A DNA stretch of 35,562 nt from Elusimicrobiota bacterium (GCA_040757695.1 JBFLWK010000018.1:1-35562), one strand, 5' to 3'. Positions 2,827 through 25,291 are shown, counted from the stretch's first letter. The notes: a model not told the origin generated them from the letters alone. Numbers and translations: made by a program.

Positions 2827-4761
2827 ATGTCATTTCTTAATTCTGCATTTCTTATTGGGCTTTTTGCTGTTTTTATACCGATACTTATTCATTTACTATC
2901 CAGAAAAAAACCGAAAAGAATAGATTTCAGCGATTTAAGGTTTTTACAACTTGCGGCACGGCGGTCAGTGAACAAATTCAGAATTAAGCAGTATCTACTG
3001 CTATTGATAAGATGTCTTCTTATAATTATACTCACTTTGATTTTTGCCCGACCTGTGATTCATTATACTTCAGCATCTAACAATGTTGAGACAGTTTTTC
3101 TGATTGATAATTCGTATTCAATGGATTATTATAAAGATGGTAAAACTCGCCTTGCCGTTGCTAAGGATGTTGTTAAAAAAATTGTCTCATTACTTAACCC
3201 ACAGGAACAAATATCAGTTTTTTCTTTTTCAGATGCTCTATCAGATGTGGTAAAAAATCCAACAACTGACAGACAATTGATATTAACCGAGTTAGAAAAA
3301 ACCAAAATTTCATACAGAAAAACAGATACAGTAAATGCAATAAACGGGTTGACAAACTATTTCCAGAACAACCAGTATGAAAAACGGATTGTTTTAATAA
3401 GCGATTTTGCTAAAAACGGTTGGTATGAAAAAAAAGATATATTCAATGAAAAACATAGAATTATATGTGTTGATGTTGGTGATAATAATGCTGAAAACTT
3501 TGCAGTATCAAATATAGAAACAGATAATAACCAGATATCTGCTGAGATATCAAATCTGTCAATCGCAGATAGAAAAATTTCAGGCTCTATTTATATTGAT
3601 ACTAAAAAGTATAAAGATATGTTTTTTGAGACAAAAGCGGCTAAACCAATTTTCACAACATTTAATCTAAAAAATATTGAAAACGGTATCCATCGCTGTT
3701 TTGTAGAAATAGAAAATGATAAACTTTTAGCTGACAACAAACATTTTTTTGCGTTTAATTTTCGTCAGAAGCCAAAAATACTTTTAGTTGACGGTAACCC
3801 GCAGTTTTCAGATTTTAAGGGTGAAACTTATTTCTTAAAAACAGCACTCTCAAATTATGCAACGGTTAAAATCATAAATTATTCCCAGTTTGAAAATGAG
3901 TTGTTAGACGATTATTCAGCATTGTTTTTGTGTAATGTTTCTAATTTTGATAAGACAACCGCAATGAAACTAAACCACTTTATTTCTAAAAACGGCTGTC
4001 TTGTATTTTTTTTAGGCGATAAGGTATCAATTGATAATTACAATACTTCTATACGGTTTCTGCTTCCAGGCGAAATTTCTAAAATCCTGAATGGAGGCAA
4101 CCTGTCAGATTATGGATTGACTGCAAATAGTGAAGAAATTATTAAAAATACAAATATCATCCGACGGTTCTTGTTAATTCCTGAAAAGGATTCAGAAGTA
4201 GTTTTTAAGTTTGCAGACGATACACCATTACTCATAAAGAACAACCAGAATGTTTTTGTCTTTGCTGTATCTGCTAACCTGAACTTTTCTGATATTCCTG
4301 TAAAACCGAGTTTCCCAATTATTATTAAGCGGATTATGGATTATCTGGTGCAGAGTGATACTGTAATTCAGTCAAAAAAGGTTGGTGAAAAATTTGAACG
4401 AAAAAATATACTATTAGTCACCGAAATAATTACGCCCGACAGCCAAATAGTAAAATCACCGACTGATTTTGTGTTTGACCAGCCGGGTGTTTATGAAATA
4501 AAATATAAAAATAGAAAAACTGAATTCTGTAATGTGAATCTAGATACTCATAGTGGCGAGTCAGACCTGACAAAGATAAATACAGCAGAACTCAAAAAAA
4601 TACTTGATAAACTGTATGTCGGGATAGTATTAGCGGATAGACATCTTGAAAAAAATGTAAAAAAATTATTGTACGGGAACGAAATCACAAAGTATTTTCT
4701 ATCAGTTTTATTGATACTGGTTATATTAGAAACAGTCATTGCAAATTTGAGAATGAAATGA
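2827..4761 (+). CDS. BatA-like membrane VWA protein
   Basis: A 644-residue membrane protein. The N-terminal BatA-type double transmembrane domain (segments about 8-24 and 57-73) contains the family-like stretch IHLLSRKKPKRIDFSDLRFL. A VWA domain follows with the metal-site motif DNSYS (94-98). The long middle resembles the glutamine-amidotransferase-like fold seen in large Bat-type proteins (LLVDGNPQFSDFKGETYFL near 320). The C-terminus has one more transmembrane helix. It probably sits in the inner membrane with its VWA part anchored there, working with the MoxR/DUF58 pair. The stop overlaps the next start (ATGA), which suggests translational coupling. Confidence 0.85.
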   Translation: MSFLNSAFLIGLFAVFIPILIHLLSRKKPKRIDFSDLRFLQLAARRSVNKFRIKQYLLLLIRCLLIIILTLIFARPVIHYTSASNNVETVFLIDNSYSMDYYKDGKTRLAVAKDVVKKIVSLLNPQEQISVFSFSDALSDVVKNPTTDRQLILTELEKTKISYRKTDTVNAINGLTNYFQNNQYEKRIVLISDFAKNGWYEKKDIFNEKHRIICVDVGDNNAENFAVSNIETDNNQISAEISNLSIADRKISGSIYIDTKKYKDMFFETKAAKPIFTTFNLKNIENGIHRCFVEIENDKLLADNKHFFAFNFRQKPKILLVDGNPQFSDFKGETYFLKTALSNYATVKIINYSQFENELLDDYSALFLCNVSNFDKTTAMKLNHFISKNGCLVFFLGDKVSIDNYNTSIRFLLPGEISKILNGGNLSDYGLTANSEEIIKNTNIIRRFLLIPEKDSEVVFKFADDTPLLIKNNQNVFVFAVSANLNFSDIPVKPSFPIIIKRIMDYLVQSDTVIQSKKVGEKFERKNILLVTEIITPDSQIVKSPTDFVFDQPGVYEIKYKNRKTEFCNVNLDTHSGESDLTKINTAELKKILDKLYVGIVLADRHLEKNVKKLLYGNEITKYFLSVLLILVILETVIANLRMK

Positions 4762-5513
4762 AAAATAGTATAAGATGGCAAGATGGCAAGATGGTAAGAT
4801 GGTTAGGCAATCTTTTCCTATCTACCTATCTACCTATCTACCTATCTACCTATCTTTATTGTCAACAAGGTGGTAAATTCGTTTTTACACAGTTATCCTA
4901 CACTGGTAATTGGGATACCCGACCAACTGCTTGGTCGCGGATTATTGAATATATTAGTATGACAACCAGTGTAAAAACTATACCGGAAAGACGAATTGTT
5001 CAAATTGCCGACGACAAACTTTTCTGGTCGCCTTTTCTGGTAATTACTGCAGATTCCGAATTTCCACAATTCAGCGAGTATGAAATAAAAATACTAAATA
5101 GATATATTCAATGTGGTGGCACAATTTTTATTGATGAAACATCAGGCAGACGAGATTCTGCAACTGATAGAGCAATCAGGAATGCAATTAAAAAGATAAC
5201 GCCTCAAAATCCGCTTGAAAAAATTCCAACAACCGATGCTGTATATAAATCATTTTATCTGTTACAAAAAGGTATTACTACTCGGTTTTTAGAGGGCTGT
5301 AAAATAGGCGAACGTTATTGCATTGTATATTCACAGAATGACCTATTAGGTGCTTGGGAACGTGACAATCTCGGGAATTATATTTATCCGTGTGATGAAC
5401 AGCAGAGATGGGAAGCCAAAAAACTAACAGTCAATATCATAATATACGCACTATCAGGAACCTATAAATCAGATGCTGTCCATATTCCATTCATAAAAAG
5501 TAAGTTAAAATGA
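4758..5513 (+). CDS. DUF4159 exported protein with repeat-derived signal peptide
   Basis: From about residue 40 this matches DUF4159 (FVFTQLSYTGNWDTRPTAW, later GGTIFIDETSG), a family found in Bat-type operons and often exported. Function unknown; length 251. The first 35 residues are written almost wholly in repeats. The charged part (about 5-16, RWQDGKMVRW) is four copies of AAGATGGY, and the hydrophobic part (about 21-33) is 4.6 copies of CTATCTAC. Together they read as a signal peptide or anchor, ending at YCQQGG. The gene overlaps its neighbours by 4 bases on both sides (ATGA). Confidence 0.85.
   Translation: MKNSIRWQDGKMVRWLGNLFLSTYLPIYLSTYLYCQQGGKFVFTQLSYTGNWDTRPTAWSRIIEYISMTTSVKTIPERRIVQIADDKLFWSPFLVITADSEFPQFSEYEIKILNRYIQCGGTIFIDETSGRRDSATDRAIRNAIKKITPQNPLEKIPTTDAVYKSFYLLQKGITTRFLEGCKIGERYCIVYSQNDLLGAWERDNLGNYIYPCDEQQRWEAKKLTVNIIIYALSGTYKSDAVHIPFIKSKLK
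4772..4854. repeat. Inverted octamer cassette: AAGATGGY x4 and CTATCTAC x4.6
   Basis: Left array of four 8-nt words at 4772-4803 (AAGATGGC twice, AAGATGGT twice). Right array of CTATCTAC at 4818-4854. The right word is roughly complementary to the left one, so the arms can pair imperfectly. The cassette lies wholly inside the coding region and forms the N-terminal signal/anchor of the DUF4159 protein. Confidence 0.9.
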
Positions 5514-7570
5514 AAAAACTATATTTCATCCATATTGTATTAAGAATCATTCTTTTTTTAGCAATAATAATGCTAATTTTTCAGCCAATAAAAAAGGTGT
5601 ATAAAAAAAGAGCGCGCCCTACTGTTGCGGTTCTTATTGATAATTCAGCGAGTATGAAAAATTTTGGTTTCAAACAAGTAAAGAAAAAAATAGTTTCACA
5701 GGTTACTAAATCAGCCAGGATTAAACCACTTTTTTTTGTGTTTTCAGATGAGACAAAAAATATCACGCCACTTACGGAGTACGAGATAGAATCATTAAAA
5801 GCAGATGGTTCCCGAACCGATATAGTTGGCGCACTGGAAAGGATAAAAACGGATTTTCTTGGCAAGGAGTTAGATGGTATTATTCTGTTTTCTGACGGGA
5901 ATCAAAATATAGATACGGGAATAACTGATGAAATACTGAATGAACTGACTGCGCTAAAAATACCCATTTTTGCGGTTGTGCCTGAACTTCAGCAAATACA
6001 AAAAAATATCTCTATCGGTAAAATAGAAATCCCTGATATTATTTTCAGGAATGTTAACGCTACTATTGTAGCAAAAGTTAATGTCGTCGGGTTTGCTGGT
6101 AAAAAAATTTCGGTTTTTCTTAAATCCGAAAATGGTTTACTACAAACTAAGACGCTGGATATAAAAACTGATGGGCTGTATGATATACCATTTGAAATAA
6201 TACCTGAAAAAGCTGGTATGGTTTCATATTCTATAGAAATACCGCAATATCAAGCCGAGCAAAATATAACAGATAACAAAAAAAAGTTCCAATTAGAAGT
6301 AGAAGCAGAAAAGATTCGGGTGCTTTATCTTTGTGGTCAACCATCGTTTAATTATTCATTTTTAAGAGCAGCATTAAAAAGTAATCCTAAAATAGAACTT
6401 GTCTCGTTTATAATTCTAAGAAACCCGGAAAATATCGTTCCTGTGCCTGATACAGAACTTTCATTGATACCATTCCCGGTGGATGAACTTTTTTCTAAAG
6501 AGATTTTTAATTTTGATTTACTCATTTTAGATAATTTTAATTATTCCAAATTTCCTATAAATTTTCAGCATCTTACTAATATAAAAAATTTTGTCAGTTT
6601 GTTTGGTAAAGCGTTCTTAATATTTTCAGGCGATGTCGCAATGTCAATATATCAGAACACACCGCTAGATGAAATTTTGCCTGTTCATCCATCTGCTCAA
6701 ATTATACCGGATAGATTCCGATTAAGTATTCTGCGACCTGAACACAATATACTGAAATTTGCAGATGATAGTTCTGAAAACAGTTCAATCTTGAAAAGTT
6801 TGCCTGAATTGGATACTATAAACTCCTGTACCAGCCGAGATAAAACTATCTTGCTGGCTGAAAGTGAGAAATCCAAAATACCAGTGATTGCAATTACAGA
6901 AGCAGGCAAAGGCAGGGTAATGTGTGTTACAACTTCGTCGTTATGGCGACTTGCACTCGGCAGTGAAAATCCATACAGTTATGCAAAATTGGTTGAACAA
7001 TCACTAAAATGGTTAACAAATGCAACCTCTATGAAACAAGTAGCAATAATCACAAAAAAAAGATATAATACAACTGATATTGCGAATATCAAAATAAAAG
7101 TAAATAATGAGTACTTCGTACCGCTAAATAACGCAACCGTGTCACTATCACTGACAATGCCTGATAACAGCAAAAAAAGTTTCTTTGCTATACCTGATAT
7201 AGAAGATGGGAATTATACTACGCAACTTGAACTGAATTCGGCTGGTAAATATAAACTTGACGCTCGTGCATATCATAACAAAAGATTTTTAGGCGACGAT
7301 AAGATAACTTTTGCTGTTTCTGAAACTTCAACTGAGTCAGCAGATATTTTTATAAATGACCAGTTTATGAAACAAATTGCAACCCAAACTAATGGCGAAT
7401 TTTTAGTAATAGACCAATTTGAAATATCTCAACTAAAAATTAAGCCGCGAACAACAGATTCTGATTTCCTGTATGATATAAATATCTGGAATAAACCGTT
7501 AACTTATATTATCTTGATTTTGTTGGTTTCGCTGGAGTGGTATTTAAGACGACGAAGCGGACTTTTATGA
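5510..7570 (+). CDS. VWA-domain membrane protein with amidotransferase-like region (BatB/large Bat type)
   Basis: A 686-residue protein with an N-terminal transmembrane helix (about 8-25) and a VWA domain whose metal motif is DNSAS (44-48). A class-I glutamine-amidotransferase-like region follows (VLYLCGQPSFNYSFLRAAL, about 266 onward). A late beta-sandwich part and a C-terminal membrane helix (TYIILILLVSLEW) end it. No catalytic triad was traced, so amidotransferase activity is not claimed; in these proteins the fold is probably structural. The start overlaps the DUF4159 stop (ATGA). It is the last Bat-type gene before the glycosyltransferase block. Confidence 0.82.
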   Translation: MKKLYFIHIVLRIILFLAIIMLIFQPIKKVYKKRARPTVAVLIDNSASMKNFGFKQVKKKIVSQVTKSARIKPLFFVFSDETKNITPLTEYEIESLKADGSRTDIVGALERIKTDFLGKELDGIILFSDGNQNIDTGITDEILNELTALKIPIFAVVPELQQIQKNISIGKIEIPDIIFRNVNATIVAKVNVVGFAGKKISVFLKSENGLLQTKTLDIKTDGLYDIPFEIIPEKAGMVSYSIEIPQYQAEQNITDNKKKFQLEVEAEKIRVLYLCGQPSFNYSFLRAALKSNPKIELVSFIILRNPENIVPVPDTELSLIPFPVDELFSKEIFNFDLLILDNFNYSKFPINFQHLTNIKNFVSLFGKAFLIFSGDVAMSIYQNTPLDEILPVHPSAQIIPDRFRLSILRPEHNILKFADDSSENSSILKSLPELDTINSCTSRDKTILLAESEKSKIPVIAITEAGKGRVMCVTTSSLWRLALGSENPYSYAKLVEQSLKWLTNATSMKQVAIITKKRYNTTDIANIKIKVNNEYFVPLNNATVSLSLTMPDNSKKSFFAIPDIEDGNYTTQLELNSAGKYKLDARAYHNKRFLGDDKITFAVSETSTESADIFINDQFMKQIATQTNGEFLVIDQFEISQLKIKPRTTDSDFLYDINIWNKPLTYIILILLVSLEWYLRRRSGLL

Positions 7571-9699
7571 ATATAATTTTTCTTTTATCGTTATGCCTGT
7601 ATCTTCTGACATTGTGTCCGACGGTCTATGTCGGTGATAGCGGCGAGTTCGCAACTGCTGCGTATACTTTAGGAATTACTCATCCACCTGGTTATCCGCT
7701 GTATGTCTTGTTAGGCAAAATTTTTACAGTAATTATTCCATTTGGTAATATCGCATATCGCGTAAATTTAATGAGCGCATTTTTTGGCGCTTTAACCTGT
7801 TGCCTTGTGTATCTAATAACAAAAGATATGAGATATGAGATAGGAGATAGGAGTAAAGACAGAACTCCCATCTCTTATCTCCCATCTCTTATCTGTGCGT
7901 TAGCACTTGCTTTTTCCAAGACATTCTGGGCACAGGCAGTTGTTGCAGAAATATATACATTGAATGCATTCTTTGTTGTTTTACTTATTTATCTATCTAT
8001 CTATCCATCTAACCATCTAGCCATCTATCTTTTTTCGTTTATTGCTGGTATCGGAATTGCAGGGCATTATATTACCGGATTGGTATTGCCTGCTTTTTTG
8101 GTTTTATACTGGCAGGATTTGTTTTATAAAAAGAGTTTTTGGAAACGATTTTTTACCGCTTCTATATTCTTACTGTGTGGCTTAACCATAATGTTTTTTA
8201 TGCCTGTTCGTTCTACAGCGCAGCCGTTTATGGACTGGGGTGATACTGAAATTTTTAGTAATTTTGTCGCACAGATAAGAAGAGTACAGTATAAAACATT
8301 TGAATTCGGTCAGACGGTAACACTATTGACAAAAATCCAGTTTGCAAAACATTTTCTGAAACTTGCTGGAGAGCAGTTCACATTTTTTTTGTTGCCTTTT
8401 GTAATTTTGGGCTTGGTAAGTTTATGGAAATCAGCAAAAAAAATTTGTATTTTTACTGGCGCCTTATTTTTAACAAACAGTTTAGGGTTGATTTTGTTAT
8501 TAAAATTCCAGTTCAATCCGCAACAGGCATCTGTGGTTGAGGTATATTTTTTACCAGCATACACGATAATGGCAGTTTGGTTGTATTTTGGGATTTTATA
8601 TCTCACAAAATATGTTAAGCCCGTTTTTCTTCTGCCTGCTATTGTTTTACCGCTTATATCAAACTTTAGTTACAACAACAAACGAAATAATTTTATCGCT
8701 TTTGATTATTCATCAAATATTTTGAAATCACTTCCTGAAAGCTCGCATTTTTTTTCGTCAGGCGATAACCAGATGTTCCTTCTGTCATACCAGCAATGGT
8801 GTTTAAAAAAACGGAAGGATGTGAACTGTTATACCGATACCGGTCTCTTATTCAAGAATGTTTTTGGTGACGATTTTTTTCAACTTACAAAAGAACAGAA
8901 ACGAGAAAGACGCGAATATATCCAGCGAGAACTATTAAAGCAGTCAAGACCTGTTTGTTTTTCGCTCGGTAGCAGTTTTTCTAACTTAAAAGATGTAAAA
9001 CACGAAATTAACGGAATAGTTTTCAGGGCAAAACTGTTGACGCAAAATTACAGTATGTGGAATTTTTATACTATCCGTGAAATAGATAACAAAAATTTTT
9101 TGGCTGAATATCTTTTAAGAGATATTGCAGCACAGTATCATTATTTTCTTGCAGAAAATTATTTTTTAACTAAAAATAATGCTATGATGCTGAAAGAATT
9201 TGATAATGCTGTAGATATAGGCGGTGATGTAGAATGGGTATATAATAATATCGGTATTGCACTGAAAGAAAAGGGGTTTATTGACGATGCAACCAAAAAA
9301 TTCAAAAAAGGAATTGAAACAAATCCATTTGATGAGAACATAAAAGTAAATCTGGCTTTTATCTATTTGGAATCGGGCTATAAAAAATTTCAGTCAGAAA
9401 AATATAATGAAGCAATTGAACTTTATAAAGAATCATCATCCATAAGTCCTAATATGCCAGAGCCATATTGCTACATTGGCGTTGTTTATGAACGGCTAAA
9501 CAAAGATGAACTTGCAATCTCTGAATATAAAAAAGCAATTTCGTTAAAATATGATTATGTAGATGCACATTACAACCTCGGTGTGGTTTACTGGAAACTC
9601 AAAAACTGGGCAGGCGTAATATCCGAATTTGAGACGGTATTGCAACTGAATCCCAACCACCAGCAGGCAAAAAAATATCTGGCAATGTTAAAGAAATGA
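7567..9699 (+). CDS. DUF2723 GT-C-like membrane protein with C-terminal TPRs (paralogue A)
   Basis: A polytopic protein of 710 residues with the DUF2723 hallmarks DSGE (24-27, in the first periplasmic loop, where GT-C enzymes keep an acidic catalytic residue) and HPPGYPLY. The family resembles protein O-mannosyltransferases (TMEM260-like), so membrane sugar transfer from a lipid-linked donor is inferred, not shown. TPR repeats fill about 540-710. ATG 7567, overlapping the upstream stop as ATGA, is preferred to in-frame GTG 7537. An inverted heptamer cassette encodes about residues 87-109, and a CTATCTAT-type array lies in the second loop (7985-8030). The third loop, unlike those of B and C, is ordinary sequence. 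Confidence 0.85.
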   Translation: MNIIFLLSLCLYLLTLCPTVYVGDSGEFATAAYTLGITHPPGYPLYVLLGKIFTVIIPFGNIAYRVNLMSAFFGALTCCLVYLITKDMRYEIGDRSKDRTPISYLPSLICALALAFSKTFWAQAVVAEIYTLNAFFVVLLIYLSIYPSNHLAIYLFSFIAGIGIAGHYITGLVLPAFLVLYWQDLFYKKSFWKRFFTASIFLLCGLTIMFFMPVRSTAQPFMDWGDTEIFSNFVAQIRRVQYKTFEFGQTVTLLTKIQFAKHFLKLAGEQFTFFLLPFVILGLVSLWKSAKKICIFTGALFLTNSLGLILLLKFQFNPQQASVVEVYFLPAYTIMAVWLYFGILYLTKYVKPVFLLPAIVLPLISNFSYNNKRNNFIAFDYSSNILKSLPESSHFFSSGDNQMFLLSYQQWCLKKRKDVNCYTDTGLLFKNVFGDDFFQLTKEQKRERREYIQRELLKQSRPVCFSLGSSFSNLKDVKHEINGIVFRAKLLTQNYSMWNFYTIREIDNKNFLAEYLLRDIAAQYHYFLAENYFLTKNNAMMLKEFDNAVDIGGDVEWVYNNIGIALKEKGFIDDATKKFKKGIETNPFDENIKVNLAFIYLESGYKKFQSEKYNEAIELYKESSSISPNMPEPYCYIGVVYERLNKDELAISEYKKAISLKYDYVDAHYNLGVVYWKLKNWAGVISEFETVLQLNPNHQQAKKYLAMLKK
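7678..7800 (+). repeat. Near-identical 123-bp island, paralogue A copy
   Basis: This segment, encoding HPPGYPLY through FFGALTC, recurs at 9807-9929 and 11692-11814 with no indel. By eye A differs from C at about 10 positions and B from C at about 4, while flanking sequence is clearly more diverged. Recent gene conversion or very strong constraint could explain it. Confidence 0.8.
7825..7893. repeat. Inverted heptamer cassette in paralogue A loop
   Basis: Left: GATATGA, GATATGA, GATAGGA, GATAGGA (7825-7852). Right: TCCCATC, TCTTATC, TCCCATC, TCTTATC (7866-7893). The arms match as reverse complements at about 24 of 29 positions. The cassette is in frame and encodes a charged stretch (RYEIGDRSKDR) followed by a hydrophobic one (PISYLPSLI) at a loop-to-membrane boundary. 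Confidence 0.92.
7985..8030. repeat. CTATCTAT/CTAACCAT-type octamer array
   Basis: Successive 8-nt words CTATCTAT, CTATCCAT, CTAACCAT, CTAGCCAT, CTATCTTT run in frame through the second loop of paralogue A (YLSIYPSNHLAIYL). There is no purine-rich partner array. The matching place in paralogue B holds CCTACAC x4. Confidence 0.8.
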
Positions 9700-11393
9700 T
9701 AATTACTTTTTTTGTCAGTTTTGGAATATATTTAATAACATCCTGTCCGACGGTATATTCAGGTGATAGCGGTGAACTTACAACTGCGTGTAATGTTTTA
9801 GGCATTGCTCATCCGCCTGGCTATCCGCTGTATGTTCTGTTAGGCAAAATTTTTACAGTAGTTATTCCGTTTGGTAATATCGCATACCGTATCAATTTGA
9901 TGAGCACATTTTTTGGCGCTTTAACTTGTGGAGTTGTATATTTGATACTACAAAAAATGGTAGACGGTAAACGTGAGACGGTAGACGGAAAACCATTTAC
10001 CTTTTACCTTTTACCTTCTACCGCTGCTTTTTGTCTGGCATTTTCAAATCCGCTCTGGTCGCAATCAACCATTGCAGAGGTTTATACTTTGAATGCTTTT
10101 TTTGTTGCATTGCTAATTTATCTTTTCCTACACCCTACACCCTACACCCTACACCCTGCCTTTCTATTCGGACTGGGGCTCGGTGACCACCATACACTTG
10201 TGCTTTTGATTCCCGGAATTGTGTATTGGATAGTAAAGAATATGAGATATGAGATAAGAGATAAGAGTAAGAAGTCATCTCTAATCTCTAATCTCTTATC
10301 TCTTATCTGCTTTTTTTTGCTGGGTTTTTCTGTATATCTCTACCTTCTACTTCGTTCGCAACAGAATCCAATTGCTGATTGGGACAACCCGGAAAATCTT
10401 ACAAATTTTTTTAGAGTTGTGTTCAGAACCGGTTATGGTGGTGTTTTACATCTTGAAGAAAAAGGCGGGTTCTTGAGCCGACCGATGAGTTTATTCATTC
10501 AGCAAATATTGGAATTTATTAGAAACTTTATAAAATCATTCACAATTTTTGGTTTTCTTGTTGGTATTTTAGGAATTTTTGTGAATTACAAACAAGCTAA
10601 AAAATCTTTTTGGTTTTTAGTTCTTGTTTTTAGTTTTGTCGGTCCATTTTTTATATTTTTAGCAAATAAGCCCGTAGATATTTATACACGCGATTTGTTA
10701 GAACCATTTTATATTCCATCAACGCTTGTATTTACAATCTGGCTTGGTTCTGGCATAATTTTTATAGTTAAAAAAACCAGATTTAGTTATCTGCTTATAT
10801 TGGCGATTTTGGTTTTTCAACTCCGAACAAATTTCGCTGAAAATAATTTAAGAAACAATTTTTTATCTTTTGATTTTGGAAAAAATATATTGAATACAGT
10901 AAAAAATAATTCATTGCTTTTTTTAGATAAAGCAGACGAGTCTGTTTTTATCCTCGCATACCAAAAAATCGTTGAAAACCGAAAACCATTGGTTAAGATT
11001 TACGATTGTAATGCAAGTGTTTTTCCGAATATTTACGGCGATAGATATTTTTGGATAAAGGGCAAAGAACGGACTGCGGTTCGGTTGCCGGTTGAGCGAA
11101 AAATGATTTTAGAAAGTAAGAAAAATGTATATTACCATGCTGGAAACCTAAATTATTTTGCAGATATGAAATTTTCTAAAACAGGGCTTTTATATTTGTT
11201 AACCGAAAAACTGCCGCCAATACTGGTTGAAGATATATATGTTTTGCGTCAGCAAAATCTCAGACATCGCGATAAAATTATTGCTTATTCGTTCTATGTA
11301 TCCATCGGCGATTATTATCTTGAAACAAACCGACCGAATTCAGCAAATACAATGTATGAGAAAGCCAATAAAATCTTTACTGAATTAAAGTAA
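9696..11393 (+). CDS. DUF2723 GT-C-like membrane protein (paralogue B, without full TPR domain)
   Basis: A 565-residue DUF2723 paralogue with DSGE (24-27) and HPPGYPLY. About ten membrane segments are followed by a short periplasmic-type tail. It ends in one TPR-like helix pair (GDYYLETNRPNSANTMYEKANKIF) where A and C carry several TPRs. Three repeat arrays are in frame: inverted heptamers at 9959-10022, CCTACAC x4 at 10127-10157 and inverted heptamers at 10240-10308. All fall in predicted loops or at membrane-helix starts. The start overlaps the stop of A (ATGA). The glycosyltransferase role is inferred from the family only. Confidence 0.85.
   Translation: MIITFFVSFGIYLITSCPTVYSGDSGELTTACNVLGIAHPPGYPLYVLLGKIFTVVIPFGNIAYRINLMSTFFGALTCGVVYLILQKMVDGKRETVDGKPFTFYLLPSTAAFCLAFSNPLWSQSTIAEVYTLNAFFVALLIYLFLHPTPYTLHPAFLFGLGLGDHHTLVLLIPGIVYWIVKNMRYEIRDKSKKSSLISNLLSLICFFLLGFSVYLYLLLRSQQNPIADWDNPENLTNFFRVVFRTGYGGVLHLEEKGGFLSRPMSLFIQQILEFIRNFIKSFTIFGFLVGILGIFVNYKQAKKSFWFLVLVFSFVGPFFIFLANKPVDIYTRDLLEPFYIPSTLVFTIWLGSGIIFIVKKTRFSYLLILAILVFQLRTNFAENNLRNNFLSFDFGKNILNTVKNNSLLFLDKADESVFILAYQKIVENRKPLVKIYDCNASVFPNIYGDRYFWIKGKERTAVRLPVERKMILESKKNVYYHAGNLNYFADMKFSKTGLLYLLTEKLPPILVEDIYVLRQQNLRHRDKIIAYSFYVSIGDYYLETNRPNSANTMYEKANKIFTELK
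9807..9929 (+). repeat. Near-identical 123-bp island, paralogue B copy
   Basis: About 97% identical by eye to 11692-11814 (roughly 4 differences in 123), whereas sequence just upstream is clearly diverged (GDSGELTTAC in B, RDAGEMASVC in C). Similarity falls off again just before the repeat cassette in each gene. Confidence 0.82.
9959..10022. repeat. Inverted heptamer cassette in paralogue B, first loop
   Basis: Left: GGTAGAC, GGTAAAC, GTGAGAC, GGTAGAC (9959-9986). Right: ATTTACC, TTTTACC, TTTTACC, TTCTACC (9995-10022). It occupies the same loop as 7825-7893 in A and 11842-11920 in C but uses an unrelated word. It encodes MVDGKRETVDGK followed by PFTFYLLPST. Confidence 0.92.
10127..10157. repeat. 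CCTACAC x4 heptamer array
   Basis: Four exact copies of CCTACAC plus CCT, in frame in the second loop of paralogue B (LHPTPYTLHPA). No inverted partner lies nearby. It looks telomere-like but is four copies inside a gene. Confidence 0.95.
10240..10308. repeat. Inverted heptamer cassette in paralogue B, third loop
   Basis: Left: ATATGAG twice, ATAAGAG twice (10240-10267). Right: TCTCTAA twice, TCTCTTA twice plus TCT (10278-10308). The word family is close to that in paralogue A loop 1, so related words occupy different loops in different genes. It encodes MRYEIRDKSKK followed by SSLISNLLSLI. Confidence 0.93.
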
Positions 11394-11412
11394 CGGTGAT
11401 TAAAAATCACCG
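11394..11412. repeat. Hairpin after paralogue B
   Basis: Perfect 8-bp stem CGGTGATT-aaa-AATCACCG starting at the base after the stop codon. No T-tract follows, so it is a poor intrinsic terminator and better grouped with the other hairpin repeats. Confidence 0.7.
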
Positions 11413-11416
11413 ACTG

Positions 11417-11444
11417 TTTGCTATTCGCTATTTGCTATTCGCTA
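11417..11444. repeat. TTYGCTA x4 heptamer array
   Basis: TTTGCTA, TTCGCTA, TTTGCTA, TTCGCTA: four 7-nt words in 28 bases between genes. The alternating two-word pattern is also seen in the right arm of the paralogue A cassette. Confidence 0.9.
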
Positions 11445-11446
11445 AC

Positions 11447-11506
11447 ATTCTACGATGCTTTAGCATCGGTTTGCTGTTTTTAACCGAAACTAAAGTTTCG
11501 TAGAAT
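11447..11506. repeat. Nested hairpin element, copy 1
   Basis: Outer arms ATTCTACGA (11447-11455) and TCGTAGAAT (11498-11506) enclose two perfect hairpins: GATGCT-tt-AGCATC (11454-11467) and CGAAACT-aa-AGTTTCG (11485-11500). CGGTT/AACCG lies between them. A second copy with the same plan and compensating changes is at 21629-21748. A separate ACAGGAT/ATCCTGT pair (11523-11550) lies downstream. Confidence 0.85.
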
Positions 11507-11574
11507 AAGTGGACTCTATTTTACAGGATAAAAACAGAAGTTAATCCTGTCAAAAACGGGTTTCAGGGAATTTT

Positions 11575-13779
11575 ATGTTTTATTTTTTAATACTTACAAT
11601 TTTTGGGATATTTACATATACTGCTTTTCCGTCGGTTGCTGTCTATCGTGATGCTGGCGAAATGGCATCCGTCTGTTACACTTTTGGTATCGCTCATCCG
11701 CCTGGCTATCCGCTGTATGTCTTGTTAGGCAAAATTTTTACAGTAATTATTCCGTTTGGTAATATCGCATACCGTATCAATTTGATGAGCACATTTTTTG
11801 GCGCTTTAACCTGTTCTATTGTGTATCTGATAGTTAGGGACAAAGGGACGTGGGACAGCGAGACAGAGGGACGGCGAGACGCAAAAAACTCTGTGCATCT
11901 GTCCCTCTGTGCCTCCGTGGTTGCTTTATCCCTGGCTTTTTCTAAGATATTCTGGTCTGTTTCACTTGTTGCAGAAATGTATACTGTAAATACATTCTTT
12001 ATTACAATAATAATCTACACAATGACAAAGATACGAGATACTTCATATCTCCTATCTCATATCTCATATCTGAATTTATCTGCTTTTCTATTCGGACTGG
12101 CTATGGGAAATCGTATTGATATTGTCTTGATTGCACCGGGAATTTTGTATCTGATAATCAGGGACGGAGGGACGAGGGACAGAGGGACGGAGAAACGGAG
12201 GGACGCAAAAAACTCTGTGCCTCTGTCACTCTGTGCCTCTGTGGCTGCCTTTCTTCTTGGTTTTTCTATCTACCTTTTTCTGCCTGTCAGGTCAAAAACA
12301 CAGCCAGTGCTCGACTGGAACAAACCAGATAATGTTCAGGCACTGGTTAATACAATCACCAGAAAAACACATGGCAAAACACTTGACTTAATTTCAACAA
12401 GATATTCAATCAGTGATGTTTTATCGTCTGAAATAAATGTTTATCTCAAAAGAACCTATAAACTATTTACAGTAGCAGGTATTCCATTTATGTTTTTAGG
12501 ATTTTTAGATTTGTACAAAAAAAACAGAAATTTTTTGCTCTCAACATCTCTGATTTATTTTATTGCAGGACCTGTTTTTATAGCAATCGCAAAAATGCCA
12601 CCTAATCCACATGCACTTGCGATTATGGAACCGCATTATCTAATTTCTGATTTGATGCTTACGATTTGGTTTGGTTATGGGATATATTACATTTCAGCAA
12701 AATTCCAAAAATTTATATTATTATTTTTAATAATCCCAATTAGTTTGTTTGTATTAAATTATCGGGCTCAAAATATGCGGTTCAATTTTGTTGCCTATGA
12801 TTTTGCAAGAAATGTATTCCGGTCGCTGCCTGAAAATTCAATAATTATCTCCCGTGAAGATATTCAGGTTTTTTCTCAATGGTATTTACAGTTTGTAGAA
12901 AAAAAACGGGCTGATATTGCCGTTATCGCAAAAGGACTCGCAGGTAGTTTATGGTTTCAGGAGACACTAAAAAAATATAAAAATACAACTGTTATATCAC
13001 TGGCTAATCCTGAAACATTCACGCAATTTTATGCAATGAACAAAAACAGAAACATTTATTTTACAAATGATGTTGAAGATTACGAGATGCTTGGTACCAA
13101 ATTTTTTAGTTATCCCTACTGGCTGGTATTTAATATCAAGGACAAAAAAATATCTGGATATACAGGGCTTGATTTTGGCGAGATTTATATCATAAGAAAA
13201 CTTTTAAAATCTGAACTATATCCAGATTTCTTTTCGCAAAAAATTGTTACACAATATGCCGATTCGCTTTTTAGAACCGGTATGTTTTTTATGAAACAAA
13301 ATAAAATTAATGATGCGATAACCAATTTTGAAAAAGCGATTCTGCTGAAACCTGATATGCCTGCTGTATATTTCAATCTCGGCTGGATTTACTGGAATAT
13401 GAATAATTTTGAGAAAACAGAGTACTATTATAAACAGTCAATAAAGTTTTATGCCAAAATGCATAAAGATGCATTAGCGTATAAATCATTTCCGGAAGTT
13501 GTTTCGTCAATAATTTCCGACTGGGTTATTGTTCATAATAATCTCGGTACAGTTTATGAAAAACAAAATAAATTCAATGATGCAATCTCAGAATATCAAA
13601 AAGCAGTTCAGATTAAACCCGATTATGCAGATGCACATTACAATATGGCAGTTGCATACTGGCAATTACAAAACTGGCGAAAAGTTGTTGAAGAACTTGA
13701 AAAAGTATTACAAATAAATCCAAATCATACTGAAGCCCAAAAATATCTGTTTATAGCACGCAGAAACGCAGGATTATGA
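11575..13779 (+). CDS. DUF2723 GT-C-like membrane protein with C-terminal TPRs (paralogue C)
   Basis: A 734-residue paralogue of A and B. The acidic motif is DAGE (26-29) rather than DSGE, then HPPGYPLY. About ten membrane segments precede TPR repeats over roughly the last 190 residues. The final TPRs closely resemble those of A (PDYADAHYNMAVAYW against YDYVDAHYNLGVVYW). AGGG precedes the ATG at a workable distance. Three repeat cassettes are in frame (11842-11920, 12030-12073, 12161-12244). The first and third have almost the same sequence and the same reading frame. Function inferred as lipid-linked sugar transfer to exported protein; the substrate is unknown. Confidence 0.85.
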   Translation: MFYFLILTIFGIFTYTAFPSVAVYRDAGEMASVCYTFGIAHPPGYPLYVLLGKIFTVIIPFGNIAYRINLMSTFFGALTCSIVYLIVRDKGTWDSETEGRRDAKNSVHLSLCASVVALSLAFSKIFWSVSLVAEMYTVNTFFITIIIYTMTKIRDTSYLLSHISYLNLSAFLFGLAMGNRIDIVLIAPGILYLIIRDGGTRDRGTEKRRDAKNSVPLSLCASVAAFLLGFSIYLFLPVRSKTQPVLDWNKPDNVQALVNTITRKTHGKTLDLISTRYSISDVLSSEINVYLKRTYKLFTVAGIPFMFLGFLDLYKKNRNFLLSTSLIYFIAGPVFIAIAKMPPNPHALAIMEPHYLISDLMLTIWFGYGIYYISAKFQKFILLFLIIPISLFVLNYRAQNMRFNFVAYDFARNVFRSLPENSIIISREDIQVFSQWYLQFVEKKRADIAVIAKGLAGSLWFQETLKKYKNTTVISLANPETFTQFYAMNKNRNIYFTNDVEDYEMLGTKFFSYPYWLVFNIKDKKISGYTGLDFGEIYIIRKLLKSELYPDFFSQKIVTQYADSLFRTGMFFMKQNKINDAITNFEKAILLKPDMPAVYFNLGWIYWNMNNFEKTEYYYKQSIKFYAKMHKDALAYKSFPEVVSSIISDWVIVHNNLGTVYEKQNKFNDAISEYQKAVQIKPDYADAHYNMAVAYWQLQNWRKVVEELEKVLQINPNHTEAQKYLFIARRNAGL
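11692..11814 (+). repeat. Near-identical 123-bp island, paralogue C copy
   Basis: Third copy of the island that encodes HPPGYPLYVLLGKIF onward; closest to the copy in B. Confidence 0.82.
11842..11920. repeat. Inverted octamer cassette in paralogue C, first loop
   Basis: Left: AAAGGGAC, GTGGGAC, AGCGAGAC, AGAGGGAC, GGCGAGAC (11842-11880). Right: CTCTGTGC, ATCTGTCC, CTCTGTGC, CTCCGTGG (11889-11920). CAGAGGGAC (11864-11872) pairs exactly with GTCCCTCTG (11901-11909). It encodes a charged part (RDKGTWDSETEGRRDAK), then NSVHLSLCASVV. Confidence 0.92.
12030..12073. repeat. Heptamer cassette in paralogue C, second loop
   Basis: A short left part GATACGAGATA (12030-12040), then TATCTCC, TATCTCA, TATCTCA, TATCTGA (12046-12073). 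It encodes KIRDTSYLLSHISYL, again charged then hydrophobic. Confidence 0.85.
12161..12244. repeat. Inverted octamer cassette in paralogue C, third loop
   Basis: Left: GGGAC, GGAGGGAC, GAGGGAC, AGAGGGAC, GGAGAAAC, GGAGGGAC (12161-12204). Right: CTCTGTGC, CTCTGTCA, CTCTGTGC, CTCTGTGG (12213-12244). The last 50 bases match 11871-11920 at about 44 positions by eye and are read in the same frame (RRDAKNSV.LSLCASV). Confidence 0.92.
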
Positions 13780-15581
13780 GAACAAAATTATTAGTATTTC
13801 TGTTGCTTGTGATTTTAGCCGTTCAAGTAATTTTTTCATCCAAACAGAAATGCGCCTATTACGACGAGCCGTTTCAGATATCAGCAGGACTGTATCATTT
13901 GAAGTATAACGATTACAGAATAGAAGTCCAGAACCCGCCGTTATTAAGGATTTTTTCTGCACTCCCACTTCTTTTTACAGATGTAACAGTAAAAAAAGAA
14001 GAAAAAAAAGAATGGATATCTTATGAAAAATACGCGTTTGGCAAAGAGTTTTTATATAAAAATATTTTATCCGCAGACACAATTTTATTTCTGGCACGAT
14101 TGCAAATTTTAGCATTATCAATTTTTCTGGGAATAATCGTGTTTTTATGGTCAGTAACAATTTTTAACGATGCGAAAACAGGGCTTCTTGCACTTTCATT
14201 TTACTGTTTCTCACCAAATATTCTTGCGTTTTCAGGAATTGCAGGAACTGATTTAGGTGTTACATTTTTTATTGTGCTATCGTTGTTTCTGTTCAGGCAC
14301 TACTTTTATATGCCGTCGCCAAGAAAACATTGTAGCCACAGATTAACACAGATTAAACATCAAGACACAGATAAACACAGATATCTTATCCGTGTTCATC
14401 ATCTTTTTTATCTGTGTTCATCTGTGGTTAATTTTATACTTTCCTATAGATCAAAAAATGTTATACTTACAGGGATTTCAGTTGGCTTGGCGTTTTCGTC
14501 TAAATTTACAGCAGTTTTGTTAATACCGATTTTTGTTTTCTTGGTAGTAATAAAAAAAAACCGAATAAAAAATCTGGCAAATATAATTCTAATCTTTATT
14601 ATCGCAAGTTTTGTAGTAGCGGTTGTATACCAGGGTTCAATTACCCAATTTATTGATGGCTTAAAAAATGTTTTCGGGATAGTTGGTGAAAAAGGCGCGT
14701 TGACATTTCTTCACGGTAAATACTCTGCGGTCGGATTTAGAAATTATTATCTTGTAGCATTCTTGATAAAATCTACGATACCTGTTGTAGTTCTAATTGT
14801 AATTTCTATACTTTTATACAAAAAAATTCCTGCAGATAATTTTGATAAAATGTTTCTGCTTGTTCCAGCAGTTGTATTTTTTGTAGCTGCATCTTACTCA
14901 AAAACACAAATCGGTCTACGATATATCCTGCCAGTTTATCCATTATTTTTTATCTATTTCTCTGGGTTAATAAAAATTAAAAATAATTTCTTGCTTCTTG
15001 CTTCTTGCTTCTTGCTTCTTTTTCATATTTATTCCTCAGTAAAGACCTATCCACACTATCTCGCATATTTTAATGAATTCATTGGCGGGTCTAAAAACGG
15101 TTATAAATATCTTGTTGACTCAAATCTGGACTGGGGACAGGATTTGAAATTGTTGAAAAAATATCTTGACGGTAAGAATGTGAATCTGATTGAATGTTAT
15201 TTTGGTCAAGGTGATACAAAATACGAGGGTATAAAAAGCCAGCATATTTTAACATCCGTATGTTCCGACAATGTTGATTATACAAAAAAGGATAGAAGAG
15301 ACCTGCTCGCTATAAGCGCCACATATTTTCAAGGAATTTATATCGGTGATATACATGTGTTTGACTGGCTAAAAGGGGGGGGAGGGAGATGGGCTAAAGA
15401 CCCGATTGCAAATATCGGCTACAGTATGCTTGTGTATGATATAACAGATGATGCTGAATCGCATCAGAAACTTGGCGATATTTTTTTGTATGGTGTAAAA
15501 AACCAAAAAGCAGCCGAAAAAGAATATAAACACGCTGCTGAAATCCAAAAAAAAACGCAACTGAAAAATGGATATAAATAA
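13776..15581 (+). CDS. PMT/ArnT-like GT-C membrane glycosyltransferase
   Basis: A 601-residue polytopic protein. An acidic pair in the first periplasmic loop (YYDEPFQISAG, D about 29, E about 30), then NPPLLR, matches the dolichyl-phosphate-mannose-protein mannosyltransferase-like GT-C group. The late soluble part DSNLDWGQDLKLLKKYL is typical of this group in candidate phyla. It probably transfers a lipid-linked sugar in the periplasm; donor and acceptor are unknown. The start overlaps the stop of C (ATGA). One loop is an inverted repeat cassette (14336-14427). TTGCTTC x4 lies in a membrane helix and a G8 run lies near the end, so the reading frame depends on several slippage-prone tracts. 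Confidence 0.82.
   Translation: MRTKLLVFLLLVILAVQVIFSSKQKCAYYDEPFQISAGLYHLKYNDYRIEVQNPPLLRIFSALPLLFTDVTVKKEEKKEWISYEKYAFGKEFLYKNILSADTILFLARLQILALSIFLGIIVFLWSVTIFNDAKTGLLALSFYCFSPNILAFSGIAGTDLGVTFFIVLSLFLFRHYFYMPSPRKHCSHRLTQIKHQDTDKHRYLIRVHHLFYLCSSVVNFILSYRSKNVILTGISVGLAFSSKFTAVLLIPIFVFLVVIKKNRIKNLANIILIFIIASFVVAVVYQGSITQFIDGLKNVFGIVGEKGALTFLHGKYSAVGFRNYYLVAFLIKSTIPVVVLIVISILLYKKIPADNFDKMFLLVPAVVFFVAASYSKTQIGLRYILPVYPLFFIYFSGLIKIKNNFLLLASCFLLLFHIYSSVKTYPHYLAYFNEFIGGSKNGYKYLVDSNLDWGQDLKLLKKYLDGKNVNLIECYFGQGDTKYEGIKSQHILTSVCSDNVDYTKKDRRDLLAISATYFQGIYIGDIHVFDWLKGGGGRWAKDPIANIGYSMLVYDITDDAESHQKLGDIFLYGVKNQKAAEKEYKHAAEIQKKTQLKNGYK
14336..14427. repeat. Inverted ACACAGAT/ATCTGTGT cassette in PMT-like gene
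   Basis: CCACAGAT(T)AACACAGAT at 14336-14353 and ATCTGTGTTCATCTGTGG at 14410-14427 match as reverse complements at 17 of 18 positions. Further ACACAGAT and ATCCGTGT words lie between them. It is in frame and encodes a polar/charged part (SHRLTQIKHQDTDKHR), then a hydrophobic part (LFYLCSSVVNFIL). Confidence 0.93.
14991..15018. repeat. TTGCTTC x4 heptamer array
   Basis: Four exact copies, in frame, encoding LLLASCFLLLF of a membrane helix in the PMT-like protein. Confidence 0.95.
15375..15382. repeat. G8 homopolymer tract in coding sequence
   Basis: Eight G in a row inside the PMT-like gene (encoding KGGGGR together with the following purines). A one-base slip would shift the last 65 or so codons. 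Confidence 0.9.
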
Positions 15582-18917: not shown

Positions 18918-19313
18918 ATGTCATTTTGTCAGAAACAGGAAATAAAATGCTCTTGCGGAAAAAGTTTTGAGTGGGATTTGTGGGACTCTGTGAATGTTAC
19001 GACAGATCCTGACTTAAAAGAAATGATTTTAGACGGGCAGATGAATGTTGTAGTTTGTCCTTTCTGCGGGCTTTTATTTTATTATGAAAAATTTTTATTG
19101 TATCACGATGAGAAAAAACATCAGTTGTTTTATATTTATAATCACAACTGCAAAAGTGATAAAACTTTATTAAAACAAAAAGCAATAAATGATTATGAGA
19201 CAGTAAAAAAACAGTCAAGCAATACTGTATTTACCGACTATACGATAGAAGTATTTTTGGGGCTTGACGAGTTAGTAGAATTTTTGAGAAAGGAGGAACA
19301 AAATGCAAGTTAA
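18918..19313 (+). CDS. CpXC-domain zinc-ribbon-like protein
   Basis: A 131-residue protein. CSCG (about 11-14) and CPFCG (about 47-51) match the CpXC domain, a predicted zinc-binding domain of unknown function. No signal peptide or membrane segment is visible, so it is probably cytosolic. There is no ribosome binding site and the -10 box is only six bases upstream, which suggests a leaderless message. It overlaps the cyclophilin gene by 11 bases, and the cyclophilin's ribosome binding site lies in its last codons. Confidence 0.72.
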
Positions 19314-19887
19314 AGGTAAAAGGTTTCCGCCAAAGGCGAATTCGCCTCATGCGAAAAAGGTTAAAGTAGTTCAGTTTTTTATTTTCTTACTTCTTACTTC
19401 CTGCTTCCTGCTTCCTGCTTCCTGCCTTTACGGCAAGGCGAAAGAAGTTGCAGTTATTGAAACGGATAGGGGTGTAATAAAGTTTGAGTTTTTTGAGCAG
19501 GATGCACCGAATACAGTTGCGAATTTCAAGAAACTTGCCCGAAAAAAGTTTTATAACGGCTTGAAATTCCACAGGGTAGTACCAAACTTTGTTATTCAAG
19601 GCGGCTGCCCAAAAGGCAACGGGACGGGTGACCCTGGCTATAAAATCAAAGCTGAATTTAATAAACGACCACATCTTGATGGCACTGTTGCAATGGCGAG
19701 AGCACAAGACCCGGATTCTGCGGGTAGTCAGTTTTATATCTGTTTGGGACCTCAGCCATTTTTAGACGGTAAATATACCGTTTTTGGTCAGGTCATAGAA
19801 GGACTTGATGTTGTTTATAAAATCCAAATCGGCGATGTGATGAAAAAGGTCTATATAAAAAAATTAAAAATTAAAAATAAAAAATAA
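19303..19887 (+). CDS. Cyclophilin-type peptidyl-prolyl cis-trans isomerase, exported or lipid-anchored
   Basis: A 194-residue protein. The cyclophilin core has [15 protein letters not shown] and the catalytic-region pattern [20 protein letters not shown], ending with [11 protein letters not shown]. It isomerises Xaa-Pro bonds, probably in the periplasm. The leader is unusual: a basic part (residues 1-21), then a hydrophobic part (about 28-41) encoded by six TTCYTRC heptamers. LTSC at 31-34 could serve as a lipobox. The basic part contains a perfect 14-nt palindrome (19334-19347). The C-terminus KKLKIKNKK is encoded by an A-rich AATTAAAA-type repeat. AGGAGGA lies just upstream of the chosen ATG. 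Confidence 0.88.
19384..19425. repeat. TTCTTAC x2 + TTCCTGC x4 heptamer array
   Basis: Six 7-nt words in frame, encoding the hydrophobic core of the cyclophilin leader ([14 protein letters not shown]). The product is nearly the same as that of TTGCTTC x4 in the PMT-like gene. Confidence 0.95.
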
Positions 19888-24826: not shown

Positions 24827-25291
24827 ATGTTTGAACTTGGTATTTTACTCAACTTTTTACATTATTTTATAAACAGGTTTTTTGTAATACCAATCGGGTT
24901 TATTGTCGGACTGGGCTGGTGGGGCGCTTTTTTTATTGCGCTTGCAGGCGATATAATTCAGATGTTTGTTTATTTCTATGTGCTTGAAGGTGCGGGTGTG
25001 AATAAAAAATTAGCTATAGTGATAGCAAGAAAATTTCCAACACAGGATAAAGTAGAACGGACAAGAATGGTAAGACGGGTGCGTGGACTTGGATATCTCG
25101 GGATTACTATACTTGCAGCAATGCCTGTTTATTTCGGTGGAATGTATTCCGCAGTGCTTGTCAGCCATTTGATGCATCTCAAAAAACGAAAGTCATACAT
25201 ATTCCTAACAGCAGGTTCAATTATTGGCTCGGCTATTTTGGTTATTGGCTTATCAGTAATATGGGAATTGATAAAATCAGCCATTACATAA
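24827..25291 (+). CDS. Small multidrug-export-family membrane protein
   Basis: A 154-residue protein with about four hydrophobic segments and a basic loop (KFPTQDKVERTRMVRRVR). The pattern GYLGITILAAMPVYFGGMYSAVL resembles the small multi-drug export protein family, whose transport role is poorly established. It starts 4 bases after the cNMP gene and overlaps the CCA-enzyme start by 31 bases. Confidence 0.65.
   Translation: MFELGILLNFLHYFINRFFVIPIGFIVGLGWWGAFFIALAGDIIQMFVYFYVLEGAGVNKKLAIVIARKFPTQDKVERTRMVRRVRGLGYLGITILAAMPVYFGGMYSAVLVSHLMHLKKRKSYIFLTAGSIIGSAILVIGLSVIWELIKSAIT

Follow-up and report, generated by a model that had tools for sequence, protein, structure and literature searches.

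The loop that follows the conserved FFGALTC..VYLI segment in three adjacent TMEM260-like/DUF2723 genes of an uncultured Elusimicrobiota genome is written in each gene by a different cassette of tandem heptamers or octamers. These cassettes are real and cannot be put down to chance; the loop tolerates them, and the swaps between these genes (A, B and C) and a fourth paralogue, D, are the product of gene conversion. More generally, patches of tandem words are distributed throughout the genome, and it is on balance probable that they are exchanged both through conversion between paralogues and through independent arrival, and are copied and folded in the manner inferred below.

The window, meaning the whole 35,562-nucleotide stretch of DNA analysed, corresponds to contig 18 of an assembly of 2.89 Mb, here labelled G000. 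G000 and its relatives were assembled from metagenomes, a procedure that can mis-join repeats, and the gene calls are crude ORFs. The three genes occupy 7537-13779, and all of their proteins (3/3) match PF11028, TMEM260-like/DUF2723:

7537..9699, plus strand: gene A, TMEM260-like/DUF2723 plus TPR (ORF reading, PF11028 match)
9696..11393, plus strand: gene B, TMEM260-like/DUF2723 (ORF reading, PF11028 match)
11575..13779, plus strand: gene C, TMEM260-like/DUF2723 plus TPR (ORF reading, PF11028 match)

The label 'loop' for the cassette sites derives from the alignment and the hydrophobic segments; an AlphaFold2 model of B (seven sequences) had a mean pLDDT of 45 and was unusable. A search of the window against Rfam matched no family, hence no known structured RNA. 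Between B and C, at 11417-11490, intergenic TTTGCTATTCGCTA repeats are found beside a separate TACGATGCTTTAGCATCG palindrome.

All three genes contain in-frame tandem 7- or 8-mer patches at the loop after FFGALTC..VYLI (loop 1) and in one or two of the loops that follow:

7824..7894, plus strand: A loop 1 cassette, with a purine arm of four GATATGA/GATAGGA copies, a 9-nt loop and a pyrimidine arm of four TCTYNTA copies, encoding DMRYEIGDRSKDRTPISYLPSL
7986..8027, plus strand: A loop 2, a single-armed 8-mer array, CTATCTAT/CCATCTAA
9959..10022, plus strand: B loop 1 cassette, with GGTAGAC/GGTAAAC words, spacer GGAAAACC and TTTTACC/TTCTACC words, encoding MVDGKRETVDGKPFTFYLLPST
10127..10157, plus strand: B loop 2, a single-armed CCTACAC array, in frame
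10240..10308, plus strand: B loop 3 cassette, a GATATGA hairpin (z -3.5) whose left arm matches loop 1 of paralogue D
11836..11919, plus strand: C loop 1 cassette, with an 8-mer GGGACAGA-type arm, spacer GACGCAAAAAACTCTGTGC and an 8-mer CTCTGTGC-type arm
12029..12071, plus strand: C loop 2, a short purine arm GATACGA/GATACTT plus a TCATATC array, forming a small hairpin (z -2.2)
12160..12242, plus strand: C loop 3 cassette, in which the 8-mer cassette of C loop 1 is repeated, its 19-nt spacer identical (z -6.2)

The first-pass annotation had described one loop filled by three different cassettes within conserved flanking protein, and both observations are borne out: the fillings are GATATGA, GGTAGAC/TTTTACC and GGGACAGA/CTCTGTGC, whereas FFGALTC..VYLI and LAFSxxxW are kept. 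The accompanying suggestion that loops 2 and 3 behave alike stands only in part. Words are present in loop 2 of A, B and C and in loop 3 of B and C, but not in A loop 3, and the loop 2 arrays, unlike those of loop 1, are single-armed or nearly so in all three genes. The DNA folding z-scores indicate strong pairing for A loop 1 (z -5.2) and for loop 3 of both B and C, and weak, or quasi-palindromic, pairing for loop 1 of B (z -1.9) and of C (z -1.7). In the GATATGA repeats, the third and fourth copies read GATAGGA or GATAAGA, thereby avoiding a latent stop (ATA TGA after 21 nt), and a coding constraint on the words is therefore already indicated.

Aligning DUF2723 homologues at loop 1 across seven genomes of the same family, as the annotation had recommended, reveals other words, or none, at the site. 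In A, GATATGA (G000) corresponds to AGTCCGA/CATTGGA in G006, to GGGAGAC or GGTAGAC/TTTTACC in G004 and G007, and to a CACAATC-type word in G001. In B, the words are GGTAGAC (G000), AGTCCGA (G006 and G004) and CACAATC-type (G001); in C, they are an 8-mer GGGAC (G000), AGTCCGA (G006), GGGAGAC (G004) and again CACAATC-type (G001). G003 and G005 have no word at this loop in any of the three genes, and the filling of paralogue D differs in each of five genomes. Cassettes are nevertheless shared, together with their flank, across paralogues: AGTCCGA by A, B and C of G006 and B of G004; GGTAGAC or GGGAGAC by B of G000, A, C and D of G004 and A of G007; and GATATGA by A and D of G000. Homologues from outside the family lack the loop 1 insert residues, as expected if these are not ordinary conserved loops. 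Loop 1 measures 33-43 aa in these homologues and approximately 45-56 aa in most family members, whichever word they carry and even with none (G003 and G005). This constancy of length implies that replacement, rather than net insertion, is the rule. The term 'insert' used in the annotation is therefore apt insofar as the loop is longer than outside the family, but at many sites the word has replaced sequence and left the length unchanged.

The comparison of paralogues with orthologues shows that short-tract ectopic gene conversion among TMEM260-like paralogues, unlinked ones included, copies the cassette along with the segment preceding it. The copies of this segment upstream of loop 1 are:

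7687..7806, plus strand: converted segment, A copy, with 90-92% nucleotide identity to B and C, compared with 33-57% over most of the remaining gene
9816..9935, plus strand: converted segment, B copy, clustering by genome where the gene body clusters by paralogue
11701..11820, plus strand: converted segment, C copy, 97% identical to the B copy

Over these approximately 120 bp (residues 41-76 of B), A, B and C are 89-97% identical to one another within G000, G006 and G004; the identity between orthologues is lower, at 78-83%, while paralogues are mostly 33-57% identical elsewhere. The segment is thus more alike among the paralogues of one genome than among orthologues, with the reverse true of its flanks, which is the pattern of concerted evolution. 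Trees agree, with the segment grouping by genome (support of 1.0 for the G000 clade) and the body grouping orthologues. The homogenisation is weak or absent in G003 and G005, which are poor in words. Tracts that include the cassette are evident in comparisons with D: in G004, the A and D cassette tracts are 99% identical, and in G000, where separate contigs carry A and D, identity is 85-90% across the cassette and right flank, the bodies being only about 50% identical in both cases. Conversely, identity between the orthologues G004.D and G006.D reaches 87% in part of the body and is only 33% across the cassette. Conversion of cassette tracts therefore changes the word found at a fixed loop. 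Mis-assembly is unlikely to explain the A-D identity in G000, because it falls short of 100% and the paralogues differ outside the tract, a judgement that does not extend to the 99% case in G004. Copying is also evident within a gene, as the 19-nt spacer common to C loops 1 and 3 is present nowhere else in G000; hence the whole cassette has been copied between these loops. The B loop 1 cassette type recurs in A, C and D of G004 and at seemingly intergenic sites of that genome, where the GGGAGAC-type cassette is present at four further places just upstream of start codons.

Rickettsia palindromic elements (RPEs) are palindromic DNA found in frame in many proteins, and a similar arrangement, an in-frame palindrome with empty orthologous sites, is observed in the phosphomannomutase of G000 (PF02878-PF02880). 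Here a GATATGA hairpin lies between ADYV and VIVGYDTRF, and most of the hairpin segment is missing from the closest solved relative, the putative phosphomannomutase 1tuo. The same codon is occupied by an AGATGGA/CACTTCC hairpin in G007, a GTAG..CTAC two-stem REPIN-like element in G006, 8-mers in G001 and, in the distant G011, AACGTTC-type arms around another insert. This makes five different fillings among the orthologues, while the site is empty or near-empty in six others (G002, G003, G005, G012, G014 and G016). The close orthologues compared are single copies, with more distant family members existing, and conversion between paralogues is therefore an unlikely source. These data show that unrelated elements reached one permissive loop independently, several times. 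Of the two possibilities raised by the annotation, independent hits and the exchange of one word for another, both accordingly occur: exchange in the DUF2723 paralogues, and independent hits in phosphomannomutase. A second site in the same enzyme has been rewritten by words in an almost length-neutral manner (37-40 aa).

Other proteins, whose identities we presume from sequence motifs, give a mixed picture. The words of a dephospho-CoA-kinase-like protein differ between G000 and G004, and a seryl-tRNA-synthetase-like coiled coil carries one in G000 but lacks any in both G006 and G003. By contrast, words are conserved between G000 and G004 in PrmC-like and DNA-polymerase-I-like proteins, as they are vertically in loops 2 and 3 of paralogue E, such that exchange is not universal. 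The GTAG..CTAC REPIN-like elements of G006 are found in loops 2 and 3 of gene B (L017) as well as in phosphomannomutase (L297). As these loops hold heptamer cassettes in sister genomes, unrelated classes of repeat share landing sites. Two further arrays in the window can be compared with homologues: 4.7 copies of TTCTTGC at 14988-15020 encode FLLLASCFLLL in a membrane protein (13776-15581) whose G004 homologue is without the array, and an in-frame 9-mer array at 20419-20468 encodes GKGDKGDKGDKG, where the G006 orthologue is 18 residues shorter.

Word patches are not, as the focus of the annotation might suggest, special to loop 1 or to membrane proteins; they occur genome-wide, including in signal peptides and soluble housekeeping enzymes. 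Sampling 435,562 bases of G000 (the window and 20 stretches, each of 20 kb) identified 129 arrays of period 7, 8 or 9 (91, 29 and 9, respectively) in 436 kb, relative to 0-3 per replicate in Markov controls, which excludes chance. The 91 period-7 arrays, compared with 0-2 in the controls, agree with the STRR, or heptameric simple sequence repeats, of bacteria in being tandem 7-nt units dispersed in many copies. The density of 29.6 arrays per 100 kb extrapolates to approximately 850 genome-wide; in smaller samples of relatives it ranges from 31 (G006), 23 (G001) and 22 (G004) down to 2.7 (G003). The 129 arrays comprise 82 distinct canonical words, rather than the one or few words per genome that might be anticipated from known heptamer families. 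The distribution of individual words also differs between genomes: the GATATGA pattern has 6 matches in G000 and none in 40 relatives, TTTTACC has 55 in G000, 26 in G004 and none in G001-G003, and CATTGGA has 25 in G004, 10 in G001 and 2 in G000, all of these being counts of matches that overlap within arrays and not of loci. Pairs of arrays with the same word number 47, compared with 6.7 ± 2.6 under a composition-matched null (maximum of 17 in 2000 draws). Their clustering along the chromosome is weak, with values at distances of 2-5 kb lying at the upper limit of those from shuffling. The census shows that the patches sit at many unrelated sites, and that words, like entire cassettes together with their spacer, recur in the genome beyond chance.

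An alternative to copying between sites is that each array is born locally, through slippage of 7- or 8-mers at unconstrained positions, with a limited set of slippage-prone, purine/pyrimidine-asymmetric words accounting for the recurrences. Several observations are compatible with this. At least five of seven positions are purines, or pyrimidines, in 91% of array words, relative to a background of 49%; single-armed arrays are the majority; several arrays are length-neutral when compared with orthologues; and one word recurs in 98 stretches from many phyla, for which transfer is unnecessary. However, same-word pairs are sevenfold more frequent than the composition-matched null, whole cassettes with an identical spacer are present at two loops of C and at seven sites in G004, and the conversion tracts take in the cassette. 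Independent birth of all arrays therefore appears rather improbable, although a biochemical preference for certain words, instead of copying, could account for part of the excess in sharing, and the word found in 98 stretches of many phyla fits an independent origin by slippage as well as it fits copying. CATTGGA is found within ORFs, which were called crudely, in 37 of 96 matches from many other phyla. Its hosts there include proteins of L203 (WOR-1), L254 (Thermoflexia) and L178 and L181 (both Anaerolineae), and among them are a tRNA-synthetase-like protein (in frame), a DUF2723-like N-terminus and large repeat proteins.

The dispersed copies of one G004 cassette just upstream of start codons might also be expected of a dedicated mobile element, in which miniature, REPIN-like transposon hairpins built from heptamers are moved by a RAYT/IS200-type transposase. 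Y1_Tnp genes are present in all genomes of the family, and the REPIN-like element of G006 sits at the phosphomannomutase loop and in loop 3 of B. Nevertheless, Y1_Tnp counts are unrelated to array density, with five each in the word-poor G003 and G005, and five and four in the word-rich G004 and G006; simple Y1/RAYT dosage was rejected on this basis. No fixed word or tag unites the 82 words of the sample, most arrays have one arm only, and the phosphomannomutase insertion has no fixed ends or target duplication visible by eye. By inspection of their sequences, the cassettes of the window lack a fixed stem with a GTAG/CGTC tag at its base; such a tag is present only in the separate G006 elements. 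A dedicated element is thus an unlikely explanation, although IS200-type Y1 transposases, found throughout the family, may yet have some role. Still less credible is the writing of words by a reverse transcriptase or telomerase-like enzyme copying short RNA templates. The strict period of 7-8 nt with many words does resemble repeat addition from a short template, but RVT_1 is not matched in G004, G006 or G007, and only as a sub-threshold fragment in G000. No full match to the reverse transcriptase that would accompany a diversity-generating retroelement or RT-templated repeat was thus found in these genomes, and this origin was rejected, as word-rich relatives have no RVT_1 match.

The proposal of patches copied between sites and folded into hairpins draws on a further property of the cassettes. 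Among 26 distinct hairpins in sampled stretches of seven genomes of the family, 25 begin with the purine arm at the 5' side and end with the pyrimidine arm at the 3' side. Since the order of a palindrome's arms is identical on both strands, this polarity is a property of the element itself. It is unlikely to be a coding effect, because purine-first hairpins outnumber the reverse by 13 to 1 outside clear coding sequence, and the presence of the polarity in intergenic hairpins too makes it a strong mechanistic clue to the formation of the palindromes. In the clearest cases, such as G004.A1 and G006.A1, arms are internally homogeneous (up to 1.00) while complementarity between arms is 0.61-0.75. 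We infer how words first arise as follows. Words may be copied by template switching during replication or repair, using short repeats as microhomology; the purine-rich repeat strand would then fold back and prime synthesis of its own pyrimidine complement, generating a hairpin; and slippage would subsequently homogenise each arm separately. Priming by fold-back would be expected to yield the purine-first order that is observed. Under this scheme protein function would only decide where a patch is tolerated, with no gain to the cell required. A wider proposal, that purine-first heptamer hairpin patches are widespread in bacteria, spread through fold-back or template-switch synthesis and act as a standing generator of coding sequence, with conversion spreading versions among paralogues, is a tentative one. 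If true, loops, membrane-helix starts and signal-peptide cores, even those of housekeeping genes, are being written, erased and swapped in frame.

Heptamer repeats of bacteria have been noted for decades, but mainly treated as intergenic curiosities or single-word families. The closest parallel to word exchange is found in the trnL(UAA) group I intron of Nostoc, whose P6b stem-loop contains Class I or Class II heptanucleotide repeats: a hairpin of 7-nt repeats at a fixed site, in which lineages carry one of two words and have shifted between them repeatedly (PMC4476775). That system, however, involves intron RNA, two words and one locus, with no paralogue conversion, whereas the cassettes described here are protein-coding and involve dozens of words at many loci. 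The heptameric repeats of Xanthomonas and Nostoc (GGGAATC and GGGGA(C/T)T) form hundreds of arrays per genome, often in inverted pairs and some inside ORFs, as here; these differ in being one G-rich word per genome, mostly intergenic and under-represented on the coding strand, and are not known to undergo site-specific word exchange (PMC4692102). In Beggiatoaceae, Cyanobacteria and Bacteroidetes, TAACTGA direct repeats are likewise dispersed heptamers whose tolerated sites are reported to depend on the translation of the repeat, but they consist of one word and are mostly intergenic, beside start codons (PMC4679880). GTAG/CGTC REPs and REPINs can also be palindromic repeats inside ORFs, and the recB genes of two Xanthomonas species contain different REPs at about the same site (PMC3733652); they nonetheless are linked to RAYTs and have a fixed tag and stem, both of which are missing from the heptamer cassettes. 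RPEs, listed as RPE domains of proteins (PMC2635572), form a few defined sequence families, unlike the variable words found here, where whole families share one site. Rapidly evolving tandem repeats create new protein segments in Borg elements, but these are extrachromosomal archaeal elements with repeats in disordered regions (PMC9879509), in contrast to the signal peptides, membrane-helix starts and enzyme loops affected here. Judged on the open-access literature, heptamer repeats and intragenic palindromes are thus already known, and the swapping of multiple words in frame and the purine-first polarity appear to be new. Multi-word in-frame patches in membrane proteins, signal peptides and soluble enzymes that look essential, along with the movement of cassettes between genes, represent a concrete and testable source of new protein segments, and the exchange of words in this uncultured Elusimicrobia family shows a route by which tolerant stretches of protein can be rewritten.

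Within genes, the arrays bear the imprint of coding constraint. The words of coding arrays are open in all three coding-strand frames in 85% of cases, compared with 28-31% of intergenic arrays, showing that words kept in coding sequence are mostly those free of stops in every frame of that strand. The first 40 codons contain 39% of coding arrays (control 19%), and 55 of 80 coding arrays are pyrimidine-rich on the coding strand. Many arrays form the core of a signal peptide, whose charged n-region is encoded by purine-rich words lying ahead of the array; pyrimidine arms tend toward hydrophobic stretches (signal peptides and membrane-helix starts) and purine arms toward charged loops. Hydropathy was nonetheless rejected as the sole cause: 18% of pyrimidine arrays exceed 1.6, relative to 6% of random segments, yet the majority fall short of a full membrane helix, and words also occur in phosphomannomutase, which is soluble. 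Similarly, TGCCTTTA was rejected as a fixed DNA end. It follows many TTTTACC arrays on their right-hand side and is seen behind other words too, but other arrays do not have it; being mostly in signal-peptide c-regions or lipoboxes, it is taken as a protein-level constraint.

The permissiveness of these sites, and the conservation of some words between genera, might suggest ordinary conserved low-complexity membrane loops, with no special DNA process involved. This is extremely improbable, given that the DNA period of 7 is not a multiple of three, that different words occupy one site, that identical words are found in non-coding DNA and soluble enzymes, and that conversion is paralogue-specific, with the identity of the cassette tracking the genome rather than orthology. 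If the sites are instead read as tolerant landing places for word patches, they constitute a natural catalogue of insertion-tolerant protein positions, and variation in loops, signal peptides and domain boundaries of metagenome-assembled genomes should be interpreted with caution, as it can stem from the dynamics of DNA repeats and not from selection on the protein.

Several further arrays were observed in the window. The signal-peptide-like N-terminus of a 251-aa ORF (4758-5513) consists of two 8-mer arrays, AAGATGGC at 4772-4803 and CCTATCTA at 4817-4855, the purine-rich array coming first and the pyrimidine-rich second. In a peptidyl-prolyl isomerase-like protein (19303-19887), the core of the signal peptide is made up of CTTCCTG/CTTCTTA heptamers at 19384-19425, and ACTTCCG heptamers at 25638-25666 encode PLPTSDFRLPK inside a CCA-adding-enzyme-like protein (25261-26106). 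Finally, a perfect tandem repeat of 22 nt, with 1.9 copies, is found at 30951-30992, at the 3' end of an ScpA-like ORF (30257-30994).
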